A stretch of 47,190 bases of DNA from Stappia sp. MMSF_3263 (GTDB lineage: Bacteria > Pseudomonadota > Alphaproteobacteria > Rhizobiales > Stappiaceae), in NCBI RefSeq assembly GCF_030733745.1, contig NZ_JASHIK010000026.1, forward strand, positions 1-47,190, in the 5' to 3' direction. Below are positions 52-29,555 of the stretch, one piece after another. Both the position numbers and the translations under genes were made by a program. Position 1 is the stretch's first letter. Every line of letters starts with the position of its first letter. The notes under the pieces were generated by a model. It ran no database searches. It was not told the origin of the DNA and saw nothing but the letters and a program-made list of their open reading frames with translations.

Positions 52-2652
<2,601 letters not shown>

Positions 2653-2959
2653 GTTTACCTCCAGATCCGGCCGTCCCCCGAAGCGAGAAGGCCTTTTCGG
2701 ACTGCGGGCCCGCTACGGCACCCGCGCGGCCGTCTTGCAGCCGCTCACAGGATATAGTGTTGCATTTCGACCACAAAAGAGGGGAAGCCCTTAGGCGGTT
2801 CGATTTTTCACAAGCCGCAGCGCCAGCCAAGCACCGCGGCTGCGGGAGAACCGGCAAAGAAAAAGGCCGCGGTGAAACCGCGGCCCTTTCATTTTCTTCT
2901 GCCAGACGATGTTCCCGCAGCGCCGCTTCCTGGCGAGCCGGCACCATCGGACACCGGCC
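2653..2959. other. clpB upstream intergenic region
   Basis: A 307-base gap holding the terminator of the upstream gene (2857-2889) and the presumed clpB promoter. On the minus strand a CTATAT-like -10 element (plus strand 2752-2757) is the only AT-rich box. No good -35 or sigma-32 consensus sits at the right distance, so the promoter is not called. No small gene is visible. Confidence 0.4.
2857..2889 (-). terminator. Intrinsic terminator after the DUF4167 gene
   Basis: A perfect 9-bp stem GGCCGCGGT / ACCGCGGCC (2865-2873 and 2877-2885) closes a GAA loop. On the minus strand it is followed by TTTTTCTTT, and it lies about 75 bases past the stop of the DUF4167 gene. On the plus strand the tail is only CTTTC, so the main direction is minus. 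Confidence 0.85.
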
Positions 2960-3799
2960 TCACGCGTCGCTGGAGGCGGGTTCCGCTTCCGTCGGCTTGG
3001 CGCTGCGCGTGCGCGGCGCCCGGCGGGCTCTCGGCTTCTTTTCGGGTTCACCCCCGGCGAGTGCCGGAGCGGTCTCGGCGGCCGGCGCGTCATCACCGCT
3101 GACAGCCTCCGAACTCGCTGCGGCGTCGGATCCCGCGTCGTCGCCACCGCCCGAGCGGGCCCGGCGCATGCCGCGACCCCGTGCGCCGCGCACCCTGCGC
3201 CGGCTGCGGTCGTCGCCGTCACCGTTGTCGTCGGCCCCCTCGTCCTCGCCGCCATCGGACTGCGAGGCTTCGGCCGACTGTCCCGCACCTGCCGCCTTGC
3301 TGTTCAGCACCGGCATGTTCTCGACAAAAGGCTGCGGCGCATCGAGCGGCATCACCGGCTTGCCGGAAGCGGCCGGCGACGCATCCCGGTCACGGCGATC
3401 ATCCCGGTCACGGCGGTCATTGCGCTCGCTGCGGTCATCGCGGTCGCGACGGTCATTGCGCTCGCTGCGCTCCGCGCGCTCGTTCCGCTCCTCCGCCTCG
3501 TCGCTCTCCTCATCGCCGTCATCGCCACGCGGCAACACCACGGGCTGGTGCATGCTCTGCTGCGCGGCCGCGATGATCCGGAGATAATGCTCTGCGTGCT
3601 GGAAATAGTTTTCCGACATCACCCGGTCGCCCGCGGCGGCTGCGTCACGCGCCAGCTGCTGGTACTTCTCGGCGACGTGATGCGCGGTTCCGCGGATCTT
3701 CACATCGGGGCCATTCGACTCATACGTCCGCGAAAGCGGATTCGGTCCCTTGCGGCCCCGGCCACGAATACGTTTGTTGTTCTGATTTCCTGGTCTCAT
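2960..3799 (-). CDS. DUF4167 domain-containing protein
   Basis: Function unknown; a family restricted to alphaproteobacteria. The conserved domain is residues about 1-75: a basic start MRPGNQNNKRIRGRGRKGPN (RNA-binding-like), then a helical HHVAEKYQQLARDAAAAGD segment. The rest is low complexity: an Arg/Asp/Glu block at about 105-140 with a 12-residue unit SERNDRRDRDDR repeated in tandem, then an acidic/Ala/Pro region and a basic RRRVRGARGRGMRRAR patch. The frame stays open 15 codons upstream (to 3844), but MRPGNQ is the conserved family start. It lies downstream of prmC, separated by a long leader. A nucleic-acid role is inferred only from charge. Confidence 0.9.
   Translation of the reverse strand: MRPGNQNNKRIRGRGRKGPNPLSRTYESNGPDVKIRGTAHHVAEKYQQLARDAAAAGDRVMSENYFQHAEHYLRIIAAAQQSMHQPVVLPRGDDGDEESDEAEERNERAERSERNDRRDRDDRSERNDRRDRDDRRDRDASPAASGKPVMPLDAPQPFVENMPVLNSKAAGAGQSAEASQSDGGEDEGADDNGDGDDRSRRRVRGARGRGMRRARSGGGDDAGSDAAASSEAVSGDDAPAAETAPALAGGEPEKKPRARRAPRTRSAKPTEAEPASSDA
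3414..3469. repeat. 36-bp-period direct repeat inside the DUF4167 gene
   Basis: The 20-mer at 3414-3433 (begins CGGTCATTGCG) recurs exactly at 3450-3469. The 36-base period equals 12 codons, so it encodes tandem copies of SERNDRRDRDDR. Looser copies of CGGTCA/CGGTCG flank both sides. This looks like in-frame slippage expansion. Confidence 0.85.
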
Positions 3800-3848
3800 T
3801 CTGCCGTTTTCTCTCACGAACGGCGACCGGTTGAATCCGGTCAACAGT

Positions 3849-3867
3849 CCGACCCCAACAGGGTCGG
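3849..3867 (-). promoter_or_regulatory. Hairpin in the DUF4167 leader
   Basis: A perfect 7-bp stem with a 5-base loop, 50 bases upstream of the chosen DUF4167 start. No T-tract follows in either direction, so it is not a normal terminator. It may be a 5'-UTR structure; function unknown. Confidence 0.4.
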
Positions 3868-4149
3868 CTCCATGAATCGCAACGACACGAAGTCGGTGTT
3901 GCGTGATCCGAACAAGAGACCTTCGTATGGACGACCTCCGGCAAACGCCGAATGTCCCCGCAAGACTTTAAGGGTTCATCTTGAACAGGCCGTTGCCGAG
4001 TGCCCCCGACCTCAGGGTCGCCGGAGCAGTCTTGCCGACGGTGTACTCCGCCATGCGATACGAGTTGTGGCCGGAACGAAAAGCCTCGAAACTTCCGATC
4101 TGCCTACCCGTGGCTTTCTACGCCACCCCCGTCGGGCCTCGGCGAGGTG

Positions 4150-4178
4150 AAACTAGCCGGTTCCGCCCGCTTTTCCAA
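4150..4178 (-). promoter_or_regulatory. Candidate promoter for the DUF4167 transcript
   Basis: Reading the minus strand, TTGGAA (plus 4173-4178) and TAGTTT (plus 4150-4155) are separated by exactly 17 bases, a sigma-70-like arrangement in otherwise GC-rich DNA. It lies just downstream of the prmC stop and points at the DUF4167 gene. Sequence match only. Confidence 0.45.
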
Positions 4179-4208
4179 GCGTCTTTTTCACAAGCGCCGA
4201 TTCTGCCG

Positions 4209-5102
4209 CTATTTTGCAACACATCGCGTCCGCACGACCCGATCACGCCCGCCAAGATCTTGAAATACCTCGATATCCTCGAATCCAACATCACGCGCCA
4301 GCCGACTGACCGCAGCGGCTTGAGCAGCCCCTATCTCCATGAAAAACGGAGCGAAACGGCCAAGGACGCGACGTCCCTCAGGCAGCATTGCCGCGTAGGC
4401 ATCAAGCCCGTCCGGTCCGGCGAAAAGCGCCAGGGCGGGATCGTGACGTGCCACTTCGGTGCTGAGGCCGGCGGCCTCTCGGGTCGATATATAGGGCGGG
4501 TTCGAGACAAGGAAATCGCATCCCGGCGCAATCGCCGCCGCAAGATCCGCCCGCACCGCCAGGAAGCGCTCCCCGACCCCGCAGCGCAGGGCGTTGCCGC
4601 GTGCCGTCGCCAGCGCACCCGGTGCGATATCGACGGCAAGCGCGAGCGCTTGCGGCAACTCGCTGAGCAGCGCGATGGCAATGGCCCCGCTGCCCGTTCC
4701 GATATCGGCGAAGCGCAAGGCCCGCTGGCGCCCGCCCGTGCGGTCGCACCAGTCCAGCACGGCCTCGACCAGCCGTTCGGTGTCGGCGCGCGGCTCCAGC
4801 GTTTCCCGCGACAGCGCCAGCTCCAGTCCCCAGAACTCGCGCCGGCCAAGGATGCGGCCGACGGGCTCCCCGCCAAGCCGGCGCTCGATGAACCCGGTCG
4901 CGTTGGCGACGACCCCCGCCTCCATCAGCAGATCCGGCTCCAGCACCGCCCGTGAGGGGTCGAGCCCGGCCGCCCCGGTCACCAGCAGCCGGGCATCGAG
5001 CGCGGCCGTGTCGATGCCCCCGGCTGCCAGCCTGTCCCGGGCCTGGCGGACAAGCCGGCCGAGCGGAACCGCCTGGTCCCTGTCCTCCGGCCGTCCCGTC
5101 AC
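4209..5102 (-). CDS. prmC: Peptide chain release factor N5-glutamine methyltransferase
   Basis: Methylates the glutamine of the GGQ motif in release factors RF1 and RF2, using S-adenosylmethionine, in the cytosol. The 297-residue protein has a helical N-terminal substrate domain, the SAM-binding motif [14 protein letters not shown] (about 136-149) and the catalytic signature NPPY at 201-204. It starts with GTG overlapping the prfA stop in a GTGA junction, so translation is coupled to that of its substrate RF1. This gene pair is widespread in bacteria. Confidence 0.95.
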
Positions 5103-20896: not shown

Positions 20897-21742
20897 TCAA
20901 GACCCATGCGGGTGCTCGGACGGCAGGCGGTAGTGATAGGCATAACCGTCGCCAAACCCCAGGCGCCTATACAGAGCGCGGGCAGGCCCGTTCTCCGCCG
21001 TCACCTGCAGCCATGCAAGACGGCAACCGGAGGCAGCCCCGCGCGCCATCGCCGCCTTCACCAGCCGCGCGCCAAGACCGGCCCGCCGCGCCATTGGCGC
21101 CACGGCAAGGTCGTAGATGCCGAACATGTCGCGGTCGGCAACGCCAAGCACCACGCCGAGCGGGCGACCGTCGTCACCCTCGGCCAGCAGCGTCACCCGG
21201 CGGACCGCGATCCGCTGAAGCGCGTCGCCAAGCCGCGTCACGGCCAACGGCGTCACAGCCTCGGGGCGGGTGCCACCAATGGCAGCGAAGGCCGACAGGA
21301 ATTCCTCAAGCGTGCAGGAGCGCAGGCGCGCAGCCCCCGCCGTGGCGACCTCCCGCGCTTCCGTCTCGTCCACCCCGATCGGCCGGATCCAGACATCCGT
21401 CTCGCCCGTGCGGCCCCAGCCCCCGGCATCGGCGATCGCCACCAGCGCCGGCGGCGTCAGTGGCGTGTGGCGCAGGTGGAAGACAACGTCATTGTCGGCG
21501 AAGACGGCAAGCATCGCGTCGAGCCGCGCGCGCGCATCGGCATCGTCGAGCGGATCCATCACGTTCAGCGAGTTGACCCGCCGCGCCGGATTGCCCGGCG
21601 ATATCCGGGCAAGCCAGCTCCCGTCCATGACAAGCCGTTCGCTCGGGAATCCGTTGAGATTGGCGTCCTCGATGGCCCTGATCAGGGCCAGGTCTGCACC
21701 GGCGGCCGGGTCGGCCGTCGGATCCCCGTCAATCCGGTTCAT
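20897..21742 (-). CDS. GNAT family N-acetyltransferase
   Basis: 281 residues with the acetyl-CoA fold in the last third: DMFGIYDLAVAPMARRAGLGARLVKAAMARGAASGCRLAWLQVTAENGPARALYRRLGFG, holding the R/QxxGxG/A-type loop and the final GF motif. The first 180 residues form a degenerate second GNAT-like or substrate domain (NLNGFPSERLVMDGSWLARIS). Substrate unknown. It starts 56 bases after the argJ stop in the same operon, a neighbourhood I recall as conserved, but not evidence for a role in arginine synthesis. Confidence 0.88.
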   Translation of the reverse strand: MNRIDGDPTADPAAGADLALIRAIEDANLNGFPSERLVMDGSWLARISPGNPARRVNSLNVMDPLDDADARARLDAMLAVFADNDVVFHLRHTPLTPPALVAIADAGGWGRTGETDVWIRPIGVDETEAREVATAGAARLRSCTLEEFLSAFAAIGGTRPEAVTPLAVTRLGDALQRIAVRRVTLLAEGDDGRPLGVVLGVADRDMFGIYDLAVAPMARRAGLGARLVKAAMARGAASGCRLAWLQVTAENGPARALYRRLGFGDGYAYHYRLPSEHPHGS

Positions 21743-21798
21743 GTCGTGCTTTCCCCGCCGGCCGGATGTCGCGGCCAGCCTTGTCTCCGGCCGGATCG

Positions 21799-23031
21799 TC
21801 AGGACCGGTAATCGCCATTGATGGCCACATATTCCTTGGTCAGGTCGCAGGTCCACACGGTCGAGCGGCCCTGCCCCAGGCCGAGATCGACGCGAACAGC
21901 GATTTCCTCCCGACGCATCACCGCCGAGGCGGCCTCTTCCGAATAATCGGGATCGCGCTCGCCATCGACCGCCACCCGCACGTCGCCAAACCAGATCGCC
22001 AGCCGGTCGCGGTCGGCCGGCTCGCCAGCCTTGCCAACGGCCATGACGATGCGGCCCCAATTGGCGTCCTCGCCGGCGATCGCCGTCTTCACCAGCGGCG
22101 AGTTGGCGATCGAGAACGCGATCCGCCGCGCCGAGGCGTCGGTTTCCGCTCCCGTGACGGTGATCCCGACGAACTTGCGCGCGCCCTCCCCGTCCTTGAC
22201 GATCCAGTGAGCAAGATCCCGCATCACCTCCGCAAGGGCCGCGCGGAACGGCCCCAGCCGCGGGTCGTCGGCATGTTCGATTCGCGCCCCGCCGGCCTTG
22301 CCGGTGGCAAACAGCAGCACCGTGTCGGAGGTCGACGTGTCGCCGTCGATGGTGATCGCGTTGAACGTGTCGCCGACCGTGGCCGACAGGAGCTCCTGCA
22401 GCACGGAGGCCGCGATCGGCGCGTCGGTGAACAGGAAGGACAGCATCGTCGCCATGTCGGGCGCGATCATCCCCGCGCCCTTGGCGATGCCGTTCAGAAC
22501 CACCGGCGTGCCGCCGAGGTCGACGCTCCGCGACACCGCCTTGGGGAAGGTGTCGGTGGTCATGATCGCCTTCGCCGCCGCCTGCCAGTCGCCGGCCACC
22601 GCGTCCCGCGCCAGATCGTCGACCACGCCGGCGAATTTTTCCGCCTTGAGCGGCTCGCCGATCACCCCTGTCGAGGCGAGAAATACCTCGCCCGGCGCGC
22701 AGCCGAGCGCGTCTGACACGTAGCGCGCCGAAAGTTCGGTCGCCTCCCGCCCCTTGCGGCCGGTGAAGGCATTGGCATTTCCGGAGTTGACGAGCAGCGC
22801 CCGCGCAGTGCCGCCGGCCAGGTTGGCCCGGCACCAGTCGACGGCCGCCGAGGGGCAGCGCGAACGGGTGAAGACGCCGGCGACCTCCGCGCCCCCGTCC
22901 ATGAGCGCCAGAAACACGTCCGTGCGCCCCTTGTACTTGATGCCGGCCGAGGCGGTGGCAAAGCGGACGCCGCCAACCTGCGGTAACTCGGGATAGGACT
23001 TCGGGGCGAGCGGCGAGACGGCCGTGGACAT
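21799..23031 (-). CDS. argJ: Bifunctional ornithine acetyltransferase / N-acetylglutamate synthase
   Basis: Moves the acetyl group from N-acetylornithine to glutamate in arginine synthesis and can also make N-acetylglutamate from acetyl-CoA. The 410-residue precursor cleaves itself between A194 and T195 in [18 protein letters not shown]195 becomes the N-terminal nucleophile of the beta chain. [14 protein letters not shown] and the C-terminal [16 protein letters not shown] are family signatures. The start MSTAVSP is chosen over a long unconserved extension. Confidence 0.97.
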
Positions 23032-23105
23032 CGGGCACTCCCTTGAAATGCGGGCATAAAGAGACTGTCGCGAGCCTTGCCCGATCGATGCCCGAGGCGC
23101 AAGCC

Positions 23106-23384
23106 CTATCGTCCGGCGCGGTCTCGCGCCGGATGCAGGAAGCCGGCGAACCGGCGATGCAGGAAGGGAATAAGCCCCCACACCATCGCAACGACGATGA
23201 TCGGAACGAGAACCAGCGTCTGCTGCCAGAGCGCCCAGCCCGCAGTCAGCGGCACGATGGCATAGAGCAACAGGGTCACGAGGGGGTAGACGCCGGCAAA
23301 GACCAGCAAGGCAAAGCGCGGGCGTGACAGCACCGGCCGCGCATCGGGCGCGGCTGCCGGGGACGAGGCTGTTGCAGCGGACAT
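23106..23384 (-). CDS. Small two-helix membrane protein
   Basis: 92 residues from MSAATASS, with two hydrophobic segments (about 26-48 [21 protein letters not shown] and 54-74 [21 protein letters not shown]) and a basic C-terminus [19 protein letters not shown]. The pattern resembles the two-helix tail on some membrane-linked antibiotic-biosynthesis-monooxygenase-like proteins, but no enzyme domain is present here. Function unknown. It sits between ppi and argJ on the same strand. Confidence 0.7.
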
Positions 23385-23455
23385 GGCAAGGCTCCTGAAA
23401 GGATTGGACAAGGCCGGCGAACGCAAATGAAACGGACAATGGACCGGACAGTGAA

Positions 23456-23478
23456 ACGGCCGCCCTGGGGGCGGCCGT
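23456..23478 (-). terminator. Terminator after the parvulin gene
   Basis: A perfect 10-bp stem ACGGCCGCCC/GGGCGGCCGT with a 3-base loop, 74 bases past the parvulin stop. On the minus strand it is followed only by TTTCAC, so the T-tract is weak; it could also be an RNA-stabilising hairpin. Confidence 0.6.
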
Positions 23479-23551
23479 CCGATTGTTCGTCGATGGCTGG
23501 CGACAGCTCCCTGCCGGGCCGGCAGCGCCTGCCTGAGCGCCGAAAGCCGGA

Positions 23552-24463
23552 TCAGTCGGCCTTCTTCGGCGCCTCGCCGGATGCCTCGTCACCGGTGGCC
23601 GGCGTTTCGCCCTCGGCCGCCGGCGCCTCGGTTGCCGTCACCTCGATCGTCGTCTTGGCCTTCAGCTCCTCCAGCACCTCGGAATAACGGGCGCGCAGCA
23701 GCTGCTGGCGCAGCCGGTCGCGCACGTCGGCAAGGTCCGGGGCGGGCTGCTTGCGGGCGTCCTCGATCTTGATCACGTGCCAGCCGAACTGGGTCTCGAC
23801 CGGCTCGGAGGAGTGCTTGCCGACCTCGAGCTCGAAGGCCGCCTTCTCGAATTCCGGAACCATGCGCCCACGGGTGAAATAGCCGAGGTCCCCGCCATTA
23901 GGGCCGGAAGGCCCGGTCGACTTCTCCTTGGCCAGCTCGGCGAAATCGCGGCCGCCGTCGAGTTCGGCGATCACGGCCTCCGCCTCTTCCTTGCTCTTCA
24001 GCAGGATATGGCTCGCCTTGCGCTCCTCCTCGCCGGCATAGTCGGCGAACTCCTTGTCATAGGCGGCCTGCACGGCTTCTTCGCTCACCTTGCCTTCGAT
24101 TTCCCGGGCAAGATAGGCATTGCGCAGCGCCCGCATGGTGAGGAACTCGACCTGGCGCTTGAACCCGTCCTCATCGGCGATGCCGGCGGCCTCGGCAGCA
24201 TTGGCCAGCACTTTCATGTCGACGACGACGTCGGTGAGCACCTTGCGCCACTGCGTCGGCGGTACCTGCGACAGCTGCTCGGAAAAATCCTGCGAGGCAA
24301 AGGCGATGTCCGCCTCCGTCACCGTGTCCTCGCCGACCTTGGCGACGACGCCGGCCGGATCCGTTGCCTGCTCCTGGGCAAGCGCGGCCGTCCCGACAAA
24401 GCTGCCGGCGATCGTCGCGGCAAGCGCTGCGCGACGCACCGTCGCGGCAAAATTGCGTGTCAT
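23552..24463 (-). CDS. Periplasmic parvulin-type peptidyl-prolyl isomerase
   Basis: 303 residues with a signal peptide ([20 protein letters not shown]...ALA, cleavage before QEQ at about 30). A SurA/PrsA-like N-terminal chaperone region follows (to about 145), then a PpiC/rotamase domain ([17 protein letters not shown] ... [22 protein letters not shown] ... [10 protein letters not shown], about 150-245). The tail is acidic and Ala/Glu/Pro-rich. It probably helps fold exported proteins and fittingly is divergent from secA. The start follows the signal-peptide logic; the frame extends 26 codons further upstream. Confidence 0.92.
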
Positions 24464-24789
24464 GCTCTTTCCTTGTGATCTTGTGTTTGCTCCGGCCGGG
24501 CGTCTCTCCCGCGCCCGCGGCTCCGTCCTCACTTGCGGCAACAGGCCCGATTACGGGGCGGCAGCCGGGATGTGTGCCAGTCGCGCGGCGTTGACAACCT
24601 CCGGACCCCCTCTTATCTGTCGAACGTCCTCCTTGAAAGGCCGGACAACCCCAGTCGAGCGTGCGTTCGTCTCGCCCCCCAATGCGGCGGTTCTGAGGCT
24701 CGCGCATGTCTGTACCGTCAATCCGATCCCCGGGTTGCAGCCGGCAACCAAGCGCCGACGCGACCTGTATCAAGAATAAGGACCGCCAC
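24464..24789. other. parvulin/secA divergent intergenic region
   Basis: 326 bases between divergent genes. It holds a good secA promoter (24591-24619) and about 165 bases of secA leader. No SecM-like arrest peptide or other small gene could be supported, and no promoter for the parvulin gene stands out. Confidence 0.5.
24591..24619 (+). promoter_or_regulatory. Probable secA promoter
   Basis: A perfect -35 TTGACA (24591-24596) is followed after 17 bases by TATCTG (24614-24619) or after 16 by TTATCT. The box lies in a relatively AT-rich patch and points at secA, giving a leader of roughly 165 bases. Confidence 0.65.
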
Positions 24790-27570
24790 ATGGCCGGCCT
24801 CGGCGCACTCGCCAAGAAGCTCTTCGGTTCCGCCAATGACCGCCTCATCAAGCAGTTGCGGGGCCGCGTCGTGGCCATCAACGCGCTTGAGGACGAGCTT
24901 CGCGCCCTGAGCGATGCGGACCTTCGCGCCCGCACCGACGTGTTCCGCAAGCAGCTCGCCGACGGCGCCAAGCTCGACAGCCTGCTGGAACCGGCCTTCG
25001 CCACCGTCCGCGAGGCGGCCCGCCGCGTCCTCGGCCAGCGTCACTACGACGTCCAGCTGATCGGCGGCATGGTGCTCAATGCCGGGCAGATTTCGGAGAT
25101 GCGCACCGGTGAGGGCAAGACGCTGGTCGCCACCCTGCCGGTCTATCTCAACGCGCTCGCCGGCAAGGGCGTCCATGTCGTTACGGTCAACGACTACCTG
25201 GCCTCGCGCGATGCCGAATGGATGGGCCGCATCTACCGTTTCCTCGGCCTTACGGTCGGCGTCATCGTGCACGGTCTGACCGACGAGGAGCGCAAGGCCG
25301 CCTACGCCGCCGACGTGACCTACGGCACCAACAACGAGTTCGGTTTCGACTACCTGCGCGACAACATGAAATACGAGCGCGGCTCGATGGTGCAGCGCGG
25401 GCACAATTTCGCGATCGTCGACGAGGTGGACTCCATTCTCGTCGACGAGGCGCGCACCCCGCTGATCATCTCCGGCCCGCTGGAGGACCGCAGCGAGTTC
25501 TACAACACGGTCGACGCCTTCATTCCCGCCCTTTCGGACGAGGACTTCGAGCTCGACGAGAAGCAGCGCTCGGCGACCTTCACCGAGGCCGGCAACGAGA
25601 AGCTGGAAACCCTGCTGCGCGAGGCGGAACTGCTCAAGGGCGACAATCTCTACGACGTGGAGAACGTCGCGGTCGTCCACCACCTGCAGCAGGCGCTGAA
25701 GGCGCACAAGCTGTTCCAGCGCGACAAGGACTACATCGTCCGCAACCGGGAAGTCGTGATCATCGACGAGTTCACCGGCCGCATGATGCCGGGCCGGCGC
25801 TATTCGGAAGGCCTGCATCAGGCGCTCGAGGCCAAGGAAAAGGTCGCGATCCAGCCCGAGAACCAGACGCTCGCCTCGATCACCTTCCAGAACTACTTCC
25901 GCCTCTATAACAAGCTCGCCGGCATGACCGGCACCGCCCAGACCGAGGCCGAGGAATTCGCCAATATCTACGGCCTCGACGTGGTCGAGATCCCGACCAA
26001 CGTCGCCGTTCGCCGCGTCGATGACGACGACGAGGTCTACCGGACCGTCGAGGAGAAATACAACGCCATCATCGAGCTGATCGGCGACTGTTTCGAGCGC
26101 GGCCAGCCGGTCCTGGTCGGCACCACCTCGATCGAGAAGTCCGAGCTGCTCGCCGCCAGCCTGAAAAAGGCCGGCTACCGGCAGGTCGACGTCTCCGATC
26201 CCGATGCCTTCATGCCGCTGTTCACCGCCAAGGGCACGAAGAAGGAAAAGATCTTCGCGGTGCTCAACGCCCGCTACCACGAGCAGGAAGCCTCGATCAT
26301 CTCGCAGGCGGGCCTTCCCGGCGCCGTCACCATCGCCACCAACATGGCCGGCCGCGGCACCGATATCCAGCTCGGCGGCAATGCCGAGATGCGCATCGAC
26401 CACGAACTTGCCGAGATGGCCGAGGGCGACGAGCGCAGCAGCCGCGAGGCGACGATCCGCGCCGAGGTCGAGGAGCGCAAGCAGCAGGCCCTCGCCGCCG
26501 GCGGCCTTTACGTGATCGGCACCGAGCGTCACGAGAGCCGGCGCATCGACAACCAGCTGCGTGGCCGTTCAGGCCGCCAGGGCGACCCCGGCCATTCCAA
26601 GTTCTTCCTGTCCCTGCAGGACGACCTGATGCGCATCTTCGGCTCCGACCGCATGGACGGCATGCTGCAGAAGCTCGGGCTCCAGGAAGGCGAGGCGATC
26701 GTCCACCCCTGGATCAACCGGGCCCTTGCCAAGGCGCAGCAGAAGGTCGAGGCGCGCAACTTCGACATCCGCAAGAACCTGCTCAAGTTCGACGACGTCA
26801 TGAACGACCAGCGCAAGGTCGTCTTCGACCAGCGCATCGACCTGATGGATGGCGAGGCGGTGGCCGAGACCGTCACCGACATGCGCCATGACGTGATCGA
26901 GGATCTTGTCGCTCGCCACATTCCCGAGAAGGCCTATCCCGAACAGTGGGACACCGAAGGGCTCCAGACGGAGGTCCGCCGGCTTCTCAACCTTGACCTG
27001 CCCGTCGTCGAATGGGCCGCGGAGGAAGGCATCGCCGACGAGGAGGTCATCGAGCGGCTGAAGACGGCCGCCGACGAGGCGATGGCGCGCAAGGTCGGCC
27101 AGTACACGCCCGACATCATGCGCCAGGTCGAAAAGGCCGTTCTGCTGCAGACGCTCGACCACCTGTGGCGCGAGCATCTCGCCAATCTCGACCACCTGCG
27201 TTCGGTGATCGGCTTCCGCGGCTACGCCCAGCGCGACCCGCTGCAGGAATACAAGACCGAGGCCTTCACCCTGTTCGAGAGCATGCTCGCCAACCTGCGC
27301 CAGGCAACGACCGCCCAACTCATGCGCGTGGAGCTGGTCCAGGAGCAGCCGCCGAGCCTGCCGGGCGATGACGAGCTGCCGCCCATGCATGCCCAGCATC
27401 TCGATCCGATGACCGGCGAGAACGAGTTCGACACGGTGGCACAGGCGCCGGCGCCCGGCGCCCCGCGCGATCCGGCGAACCCGTCGACATGGGGCAAGGT
27501 CGGCCGCAACGAGGCCTGTCCCTGCGGCTCCGGCAAGAAGTACAAGCACTGCCATGGCAGCTTGGCTTAG
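24790..27570 (+). CDS. secA: Preprotein translocase ATPase SecA
   Basis: Drives unfolded preproteins through SecYEG with ATP. The 926 residues include the nucleotide-binding [17 protein letters not shown], the DEVD box in [21 protein letters not shown], the NBD2 segment [15 protein letters not shown] and [10 protein letters not shown], and a C-terminal SecB/zinc tail [14 protein letters not shown] with the intact C-x-C-x8-C-H pattern. The start [18 protein letters not shown] is the family start; a 28-codon upstream extension is not. A 12-bp inverted repeat with a T-tract begins 9 bases after the stop. Confidence 0.98.
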
Positions 27571-27578
27571 GAATTTAC

Positions 27579-27630
27579 AAAACCCAGCGAGGTCAATCGT
27601 GTTTCCGACGTATGTCCATCGCTGGGTTTT
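27579..27630 (+). terminator. Long-loop inverted repeat after secA, overlapping the next gene's start
   Basis: AAAACCCAGCGA (27579-27590) is exactly complementary to TCGCTGGGTTTT (27619-27630), with a 28-base loop and one further T. This is a plausible secA terminator. The loop holds part of the GAGG ribosome site (27589-27592) and the GTG start (27599) of the downstream gene, so folding would also hide that start. Confidence 0.65.
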
Positions 27631-28396
27631 TCCTTATATTATAATTACATCTATTATTTCTGCATTTATATTTATGGTAATCGGAATTTTAGGAAGTAAT
27701 TCTGATTTTCTAACAGCCTCCGCGTCATTGGGCGGCGTATCCGCAGCCCTTTCCGCTCTATTCATATATATCAAGACATCAGAACAAAAATATTCATCCG
27801 ATCATGTCGAACTGGTCGAGAAAAGCTTCATCGAGGCAATAAACATAATCGACCTCGGCCAAAACAGAGGAAATTACTTGAATGCAGCTCGCATTTTGAA
27901 AAATACAAGAGAAATAATAGATCGAAACTTAAAAACTGAATATGCACCCGTATATCTAGCATTACTGCTCAGGTATTCTCTAACAATAAGAGAAAAAGTA
28001 GGTATTGACCGAAAAAACAATAATCCGTCTAGATATCTTGGTGGCAGAACAGGAGATATGTTCCGAGCCTATGCGGAGCTTTCAGCGGAGGGAAATCGAT
28101 ACGGTGGGCTTGGGTTTACGTCTATGGAATTAGGTGGCCTACCGATCCATGAAGGCTCTCTATATGAAATTTATCTCTCCACTAAATTTCCATCTGAAAG
28201 TTCCTTGATTAGGATCGAGAATAAATTTTCCGAATCTATTCTAAAAGAGGCAGTTCACGACTTTCCTGCACTTCTTGATTATATAAAATTCTTGCGAAGA
28301 CACAATGCCGTCGATGGAATAGTATATAGAATTGAAGATGACAAGACTTTAACAGAGGTCTACTCACTCTCCGATGAAAACAAACGCTGCTCTTGA
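27599..28396 (+). CDS. AT-rich orphan gene: two-helix membrane protein of unknown function
   Basis: Not recognised. From GTG 27599 (GAGG 6 bases upstream) it encodes 265 residues; ATG 27554 inside secA would give 280. Two transmembrane helices lie at about 10-31 (VFPYIIITSIISAFIFMVIG) and 38-58 (LTASASLGGVSAALSALFIY), then a roughly 205-residue, mostly helical, presumably cytosolic region rich in Lys/Asn/Ile and with no catalytic motif I know. Base use differs sharply: 60-base samples at 27661 and 27901 are 30% GC and 28021 is 48%, against 60% in secA at 27241. ATA, AGA and TTA codons are common. The stop overlaps the cyclase start by 23 bases. It is probably horizontally acquired; a defence or superinfection-exclusion role is only a guess. 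Confidence 0.8.
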   Translation: MFPTYVHRWVFPYIIITSIISAFIFMVIGILGSNSDFLTASASLGGVSAALSALFIYIKTSEQKYSSDHVELVEKSFIEAINIIDLGQNRGNYLNAARILKNTREIIDRNLKTEYAPVYLALLLRYSLTIREKVGIDRKNNNPSRYLGGRTGDMFRAYAELSAEGNRYGGLGFTSMELGGLPIHEGSLYEIYLSTKFPSESSLIRIENKFSESILKEAVHDFPALLDYIKFLRRHNAVDGIVYRIEDDKTLTEVYSLSDENKRCS

Positions 28397-29555
28397 AGAC
28401 ATCGAGGACTGGCTGATCCGCGAGGCGCTCGGCCAGCCGGATATCGGAGAGATGTTCGCCGGCTTCTGCGAACGTCTGGCCGCGGCCGGAATGCCGGTCG
28501 AGCGCGGGATGCTCACATGGGCGACCCTGCACCCGCTGGTCGAGGCCGAATCGGCCTTCTGGCGCGCCGGCCATGCGGCCGAGATCTCCCAGTACCGGCA
28601 TGACGAGGAAGAAACCGAAGACTGGCTGCAGAGTCCGATCCGCGCCGTTCTGGAGGCACGCGAACCGCGCCTGCGCCGCCGCCTGTCGGGCGGCAACGCC
28701 GTTTTCGAGTACCCGCTCCTGACAAGCCTCAAGGACGAGGGCTACACCGACTATCTGATCCTCTCCACCCCGTTCGACCTGCCGACCGTCACGGATTTCG
28801 GCCGCTCCGGCATGCTCGTCACCTGGGCGACCAGGGAGCCCGACGGCTTCTCCGACCAGACGGTGGAAGGTCTCGACTATCTGCAGCTGCGCCTGGCGCT
28901 GGCCTGCCGGGCGACGATCCAGACGCGCATCGCCCGCACCCTGGCCGAGACCTATCTGGGCGCGCGCGCCGGAGGGCAGGTGCTCGCCGGGCGCATCCGG
29001 CATGGCGACGGCGAGACCCTAGACGCGGTGATTTTCTACTCCGACCTGCGCGGCTCCACGGCGCTCGCCGACCGGCTGGAGCCGGACGCCTACATGGCGC
29101 ATCTGAACGCCTATTTCGAGGCGACCGCCGGTGCCGTGATGGCGAGCGGCGGCGAGGTACTCGACTTCATCGGCGACGCGGTGCTCGCCGTCTTCCCGAT
29201 CGGTGCGGACGGGGTCGCACCTGCCGCCTGCCGGGCGCTGGAAGCCGCCGACGCCGTTCTCCTGCGCCTGCGCGAGGCACAGCGGATCACCGTGCATCCG
29301 CTCAACTGCGGCATAGCGCTGTCCTCCGGCCAGGTGATGTTCGGCAATATCGGCGTGCCCGCGCGACTGACCTTTTCCGTCATCGGCCGCACGGTCAACG
29401 CCGCCGCCCGCATCGAGGCAATGACCAAGCAGCTCGGCCGGCCGCTTCTCGTCACCGCCGAGATCGCCGCCGCCGCCCCGCGCGACTTTGCCAGCATCGG
29501 TCGCTTTCATCTCGCCGGCTTCGGCGAGGAGGTGGAACTGCACGCGCCGCTTTGA
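28374..29555 (+). CDS. Class III adenylate/guanylate cyclase
   Basis: 393 residues. The first 200 form an uncharacterised sensor-like domain seen in many rhizobial cyclases. The catalytic domain (about 218-390) has both metal aspartates, D224 (FYSDLRGST) and D268 (FIGDAVLAVF), plus GNIG and the transition-state Asn and Arg in VNAAARIEA. The usual nucleobase-selecting Asp before TVN is Arg here (VIGRTVN), so the purine cannot be predicted safely. ATG 28374 has no good ribosome site and its first codons lie in the AT-rich gene, so ATG 28453 (MFAGFCERL) is an alternative start. Confidence 0.9.
   Translation: MKTNAALEDIEDWLIREALGQPDIGEMFAGFCERLAAAGMPVERGMLTWATLHPLVEAESAFWRAGHAAEISQYRHDEEETEDWLQSPIRAVLEAREPRLRRRLSGGNAVFEYPLLTSLKDEGYTDYLILSTPFDLPTVTDFGRSGMLVTWATREPDGFSDQTVEGLDYLQLRLALACRATIQTRIARTLAETYLGARAGGQVLAGRIRHGDGETLDAVIFYSDLRGSTALADRLEPDAYMAHLNAYFEATAGAVMASGGEVLDFIGDAVLAVFPIGADGVAPAACRALEAADAVLLRLREAQRITVHPLNCGIALSSGQVMFGNIGVPARLTFSVIGRTVNAAARIEAMTKQLGRPLLVTAEIAAAAPRDFASIGRFHLAGFGEEVELHAPL

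Follow-up and report, generated by a model that had tools for sequence, protein, structure and literature searches.

A short AT-rich segment with an orphan reading frame in the place of the secA–cyclase spacer of Stappia sp. MMSF_3263

Introduction

For variable segments lying between backbone genes, illegitimate recombination assisted by homology has been proposed as the cause, and the process is one described for naturally competent bacteria (Touzain et al. 2010, PMC2884548). Here we describe an AT-rich segment between secA and a nucleotide cyclase gene in Stappia sp. MMSF_3263, studied in a stretch of 47,190 bases (the window). The insert is like the variable segments in being short, in lacking mobility genes and in substituting for another segment between core genes. 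It is unlike them in its length of about 800 bases, compared with under 500 bases for their microdiversity class, in that the comparison is between species of a genus rather than between strains and in that the insert is strongly AT-rich and without any match.

Results

Base composition and reading frame

The locus had been described, from its letters only, as an AT-rich gene between secA and a cyclase gene, and measurement of the whole interval agreed with this. The conserved left neighbour, secA (24787..27570, plus strand), was identified by its Pfam SecA domains, and the conserved right neighbour (28374..29555, plus strand, with its ATG at 28374) by Pfam as a cyclase (PF00211). Between them, occupying what comparison with congeners indicates to be the place of the native spacer, lie 803 bases (27571..28373) with a GC content of 0.39; this value, 39% for everything between the stop codon of SecA and the start codon of the cyclase, compares with approximately 65–67% around it and with 0.60–0.74 in the remaining 500-base tiles of the window. 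The orphan ORF (27599-28396, plus strand) runs from a GTG at 27599 to a TGA at 28394-28396 and encodes 265 amino acids, while an in-frame ATG at 27554, within secA, provides an alternative start that would add 15 residues to give 280. The GC contents at its codon positions 1, 2 and 3 are 0.45, 0.37 and 0.34, compared with 0.69, 0.38 and 0.90 for secA and 0.72, 0.49 and 0.86 for the cyclase, a third-position value of 0.34 against 0.86–0.90, and its frequent codons include ATA (10), AGA (7) and TTA plus CTA (12).

The plus strand is free of stops for 267 codons across the whole insert, whereas in 2000 first-order Markov copies of the insert the longest run averaged 68 and reached at most 166, so that the open frame of the ORF is not due to chance. 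We also surveyed a sample of 427,190 bases of the same genome, comprising the window and 19 stretches from four contigs chosen by convenience; six of the 1669 overlapping 500-base windows fell below 0.45 GC, two of them in the insert and four in one other island. The genome holds one copy of the ORF.

A second AT-rich orphan, a 382-residue ORF with a GC content of about 0.42, was noted on the minus strand of contig C49 at 21226-24629 (1226-4629 of stretch L096). It has no Pfam, PADLOC or plasmid match, is present in one of the 14 genomes of the genus and shares four bases with the beginning of an extra EF-G gene. The extra EF-G carries an N-terminal extension of about 63 residues; the usual rpsG-fusA copy is on contig C34, and each of three congeners searched has one EF-G, which matches the extra EF-G from residue 64-65 on. 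A transposase-like remnant, an integrase-type frame recognized by eye, lies upstream of the 382-residue ORF (L096 4734-5621, minus strand). A GS..DFD stretch in this ORF presumably recalls nucleotidyltransferases, and it is conceivable that the ORF encodes an effector and that the extra EF-G beside it is a spare or resistant copy of its target.

The secA–cyclase interval in relatives

The gene is absent from 13 congeners, in which we compared the secA–cyclase interval. All 13 have a counterpart of the cyclase (E 1e-157 or better) and, in 12, secA and the cyclase are neighbours without the ORF, from which we conclude that the cyclase predates the ORF at this locus. The flanking backbone genes are conserved and collinear in the relatives, and the same gap is filled in different ways: by a spacer of 96-168 bases, the stop codon counted, in eight of the 13 (L003-L007, L013-L015), by an unrelated, host-like ORF of about 290-300 residues in four (L008, L010-L012; interval GC 0.62-0.69) and by the present ORF here. 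Of these four gap ORFs the L011 copy was tested, and it passes the Gly_transf_sug cut-off. For the remaining congener, L009 (G007), secA is absent from the 1.5 kb fetched upstream of the cyclase counterpart. In its place is an ORF that by eye resembles a TRAP-transporter binding protein. Four further genomes of the family (L017, L018, L023 and L024) keep the secA–cyclase pair, with gaps of 107-310 bases.

Tiles flanking the insert match all ten of ten congener stretches, and the insert tiles at 27701 and 28001 match none of the ten. The spacers of the five nearest congeners contain a GC-rich hairpin with a T run (two were folded) and, a few bases ahead of the start of the cyclase, a GGAGG. Even the closest genome has an identity of only about 80% in this gene, and the spacer used for comparison is that of the congeners, not the former one of the lineage itself.

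Junctions

At the left junction SecA ends in SLA-stop, compared with ALA-stop in the nearest congeners; the GGAA after the stop still resembles the congener spacer, and the similarity then stops. On this resemblance, the four or five bases that directly follow the stop may be native, and the left boundary of the insert is fuzzy by a few bases. At the right junction similarity returns at the cyclase start (ATGAAAAC vs TTGAAAACC), the identity of the cyclase to the five nearest congeners being 0.63-0.70 over the first 30 bases, 0.93-1.0 over the next 30 and 0.87-0.90 over the following block. The spacer of the congeners is not present here; the insert replaces it. Except for the first base, the last seven codons of the ORF and its stop (28373..28396, plus strand) coincide with the 5′ end of the cyclase, translated in a different frame. 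The C-terminus of the ORF is thus chimeric, and its DENKRCS residues are host-derived and not those of the donor. The gene had been thought to be fitted exactly between its neighbours, and this did not hold: it overlaps the cyclase ORF by 23 bases, nothing is left of the native spacer beyond the possible few bases at the left, and its reading frame runs across the right junction.

No direct repeats flank the insert in 27400-28600, the ORF has no mobility domain in Pfam, and no known mobile element within the libraries searched explains the insert. Neither a mobility gene nor end repeats nor a recombination site were seen at the insert, from which we infer entry by recombination. Among the candidates rejected was an insertion sequence or small transposon, because direct repeats are lacking and no remainder of the native spacer was seen; the same observations disfavour simple transposition. 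Near the left end of the insert the transposon test turned up a perfect inverted pair of 12 bases, which is a local hairpin. An integron gene cassette was also rejected, as the overlap of the ORF with the cyclase ORF leaves no downstream bases for an attC site, a judgement made from the positions of the two ORFs.

The hairpin and the two start sites

The GTG of the ORF is covered by a hairpin (27579..27630, plus strand) whose 12-base arms pair perfectly and which has a T run behind it; it is a possible secA terminator. Folded as RNA it has an energy of −26.7 kcal/mol (z −6.2). Among the 14 genomes of the genus it has a single occurrence, at the position occupied by the terminator-like hairpin of the congeners. 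Our terminator scan allows loops of 3-8 only and therefore did not list it. The hairpin contains both the Shine–Dalgarno (SD)-like GCGAGG and the GTG of the ORF, the SD-like pairing being −7.7 kcal/mol at the GTG and −1.0 kcal/mol at the ATG at 27554. The promoter scan gave two weak sites, about the shuffle level (mean 1.3, sd 1.0), and Rfam gave one match, of E 0.36 and under its gathering score. If the hairpin acts as a terminator, the ORF would be translated from read-through transcripts only.

The best SD-like pairing of the cyclase is −7.0 kcal/mol, 15 bases from its ATG, a strength comparable with that of the best 5% of random sites; the five nearest congeners have values of −9.8 to −13.6 kcal/mol near the start. 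A weak cyclase SD is also found in L014 (−6.8) and L017 (−0.3). The stop codon of the ORF begins 20 bases past the A of the cyclase ATG, and this spacing makes it plausible that translation of the cyclase is coupled to that of the ORF.

The protein product

Hydropathy upheld the two N-terminal membrane helices that had been noticed, placing membrane segments at about residues 9-33 and 37-58, with about 205 residues after them. The product is probably an inner-membrane protein with an N-terminal pair of membrane helices, and the domain that follows is probably cytosolic. The description of that domain as helical stood in part: the structure models of the portion after the membrane segments, of low confidence as a whole, contain a helical stretch, three helices at residues 67-134 with moderate confidence, and most of the remaining residues have a pLDDT below 50.

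No family had been recognized by eye, and searches with the product gave the same result. In Pfam there was no match past cut-off; ComR_TPR alone came up, at a subthreshold E of 0.03-0.1, and no nucleotide-binding family was matched; PHROGs, NCBIfam and PADLOC, the last searched at E up to 10, gave no match, and no solved structure was matched among the PDB sequences (best E 0.53). At E ≤ 0.01 the protein is present in one of the 14 genomes of the genus, that is, its own, and no relatives besides this copy were found in 397 genomes of the order or 385 of the class, nor any relatives in 369 genomes of another class, a search run without a positive control. These surveys, and one of 398 genomes of the phylum, overlap in part. 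In the phylum survey nine other genomes matched the ORF at E 0.014-0.092, a smaller number than the approximately 40 expected by chance at E 0.1 per genome. Re-inspection found a chemoreceptor-like frame at one of the nine loci and an amidotransferase-like frame at another (both named by eye), and, at L040, a frame of 110 residues, not gene-like, in which 24 residues around PS-K/R-YLG-x-RTGD are 54% identical; the other six gave nothing useful and none of the nine was counted as a relative.

By protein there was no relative in 72,556 plasmid records or 50,697 phage records, and by DNA there was no match in plasmids. Viral contigs and genome contigs gave word matches, none of which was confirmed, in scans that require exact 8-residue words and so detect close relatives only. 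The orphan status of the gene was thus sustained in the family libraries and in the phage, plasmid, viral-contig and genome collections searched, and neither a donor nor a second copy was found there.

A hydrophobic five-residue rhythm at residues 166-200 prompted the idea of a pentapeptide-repeat protein. The membrane form of these proteins, with two N-terminal helices, a helical linker and the repeats, was seen in six plasmid proteins, and the ORF is like it in having two N-terminal membrane segments and then a helical stretch. For the profile, a linker motif was matched by 109 plasmid records, and six of the 40 listed were used. The identity was rejected: profile comparison with hhalign gave a probability of 3.7%, over 34 columns of the membrane part only, and PF00805 was not matched with the E limit set to 10, a search in which filters drop most weak matches. 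Of 30 loci of the order with pentapeptide-repeat proteins, 28 gave an ORF, and the wanted architecture was found by eye in none.

Discussion

The most probable reading, to which we assign a probability of roughly 0.6, is that a short foreign segment acquired in this lineage replaced the secA–cyclase spacer through recombination and carries one membrane-protein ORF. The foreign origin of the ORF is well supported, because its composition, its lone occurrence, the replaced spacer, the intact flanks and the chimeric right end all argue for acquisition. Recombination through secA on the left together with a non-homologous join on the right would be the cheapest route: foreign DNA would enter by recombination started in the flanking core gene, and the non-homologous join would close the right side of the insert. 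The transcript of the ORF would then arise from secA read-through past the hairpin that covers its start codon, and its expression would be low or conditional, given that hairpin, while the cyclase, deprived of the close ribosome-binding site of the nearest relatives, would now be translated by coupling to the ORF.

The intact ORF fits a working gene and a young fragment alike, and we rate these two about equally likely. A non-functional foreign fragment, its frame still open by chance, would agree with a reading frame cut at the right end, with the hairpin over the start and with the absence of relatives; however, 267 stop-free codons in AT-rich DNA, with an SD-like site at the GTG, point to what was once a real gene and is undecayed, and we consider such a fragment rather unlikely. 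If the ORF works, it might be a membrane-acting accessory protein of phage or plasmid origin, in exclusion or defence for example, a role that would come naturally to cargo of this type, but this is a guess and an unlikely one. The same low likelihood attaches to a phage-exclusion or defence gene in the form of a membrane-anchored effector carried as bare cargo. The foreign composition, the lone gene with two membrane helices and a further domain, and the variable nature of the place between the core genes all suit it, but PADLOC and PHROGs are without a match, relatives are absent from the phages, plasmids and viral contigs searched, no defence neighbours were seen at the locus and the C-terminus is chimeric. 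It is more doubtful still that the ORF is the first member of a new family of membrane effectors with two helices, in phage exclusion or defence, which would travel as a bare gene and insert behind a core gene, and would be kept almost silent by the hairpin over its start codon until secA read-through rises, with the cyclase tied to it by translational coupling.

Two other explanations appear very improbable. The sequence-only reading had raised a nucleotide-sensing link to the cyclase, in which the ORF would be a membrane effector that senses the cyclic nucleotide made by its neighbour; the two ORFs are indeed adjacent, on the same strand and overlapping by 23 bases. This link was not supported, as the enzyme has an ordinary PF00211 domain and adjoins secA without the ORF in 12 of the 13 congeners, so that adjacency is no argument for partnership, and the ORF has no match to a nucleotide-binding family. 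Equally remote is an assembly error that put foreign DNA between two host genes: the assembly is a draft of 50 contigs and the insert occurs in no second genome, but the sequence on both sides is that of the host, arranged as expected, on a single contig of 47,190 bases, and the completeness of the assembly is given as 99.87% and its contamination as 0.79%.

The evidence for an acquired segment speaks more to the origin of the ORF than to its role, and the ORF would gain importance only if a membrane function were shown. The type of event, a variable segment between core genes, is already known. Orphan genes of foreign origin such as this one are common, and the lesson is therefore modest. What the locus presents is a clean instance of replacement by a single gene between two core genes, in which both junctions can be read by comparison with congeners, and it indicates that such a join can make the end of a protein chimeric and remove the close ribosome-binding site of the next gene.
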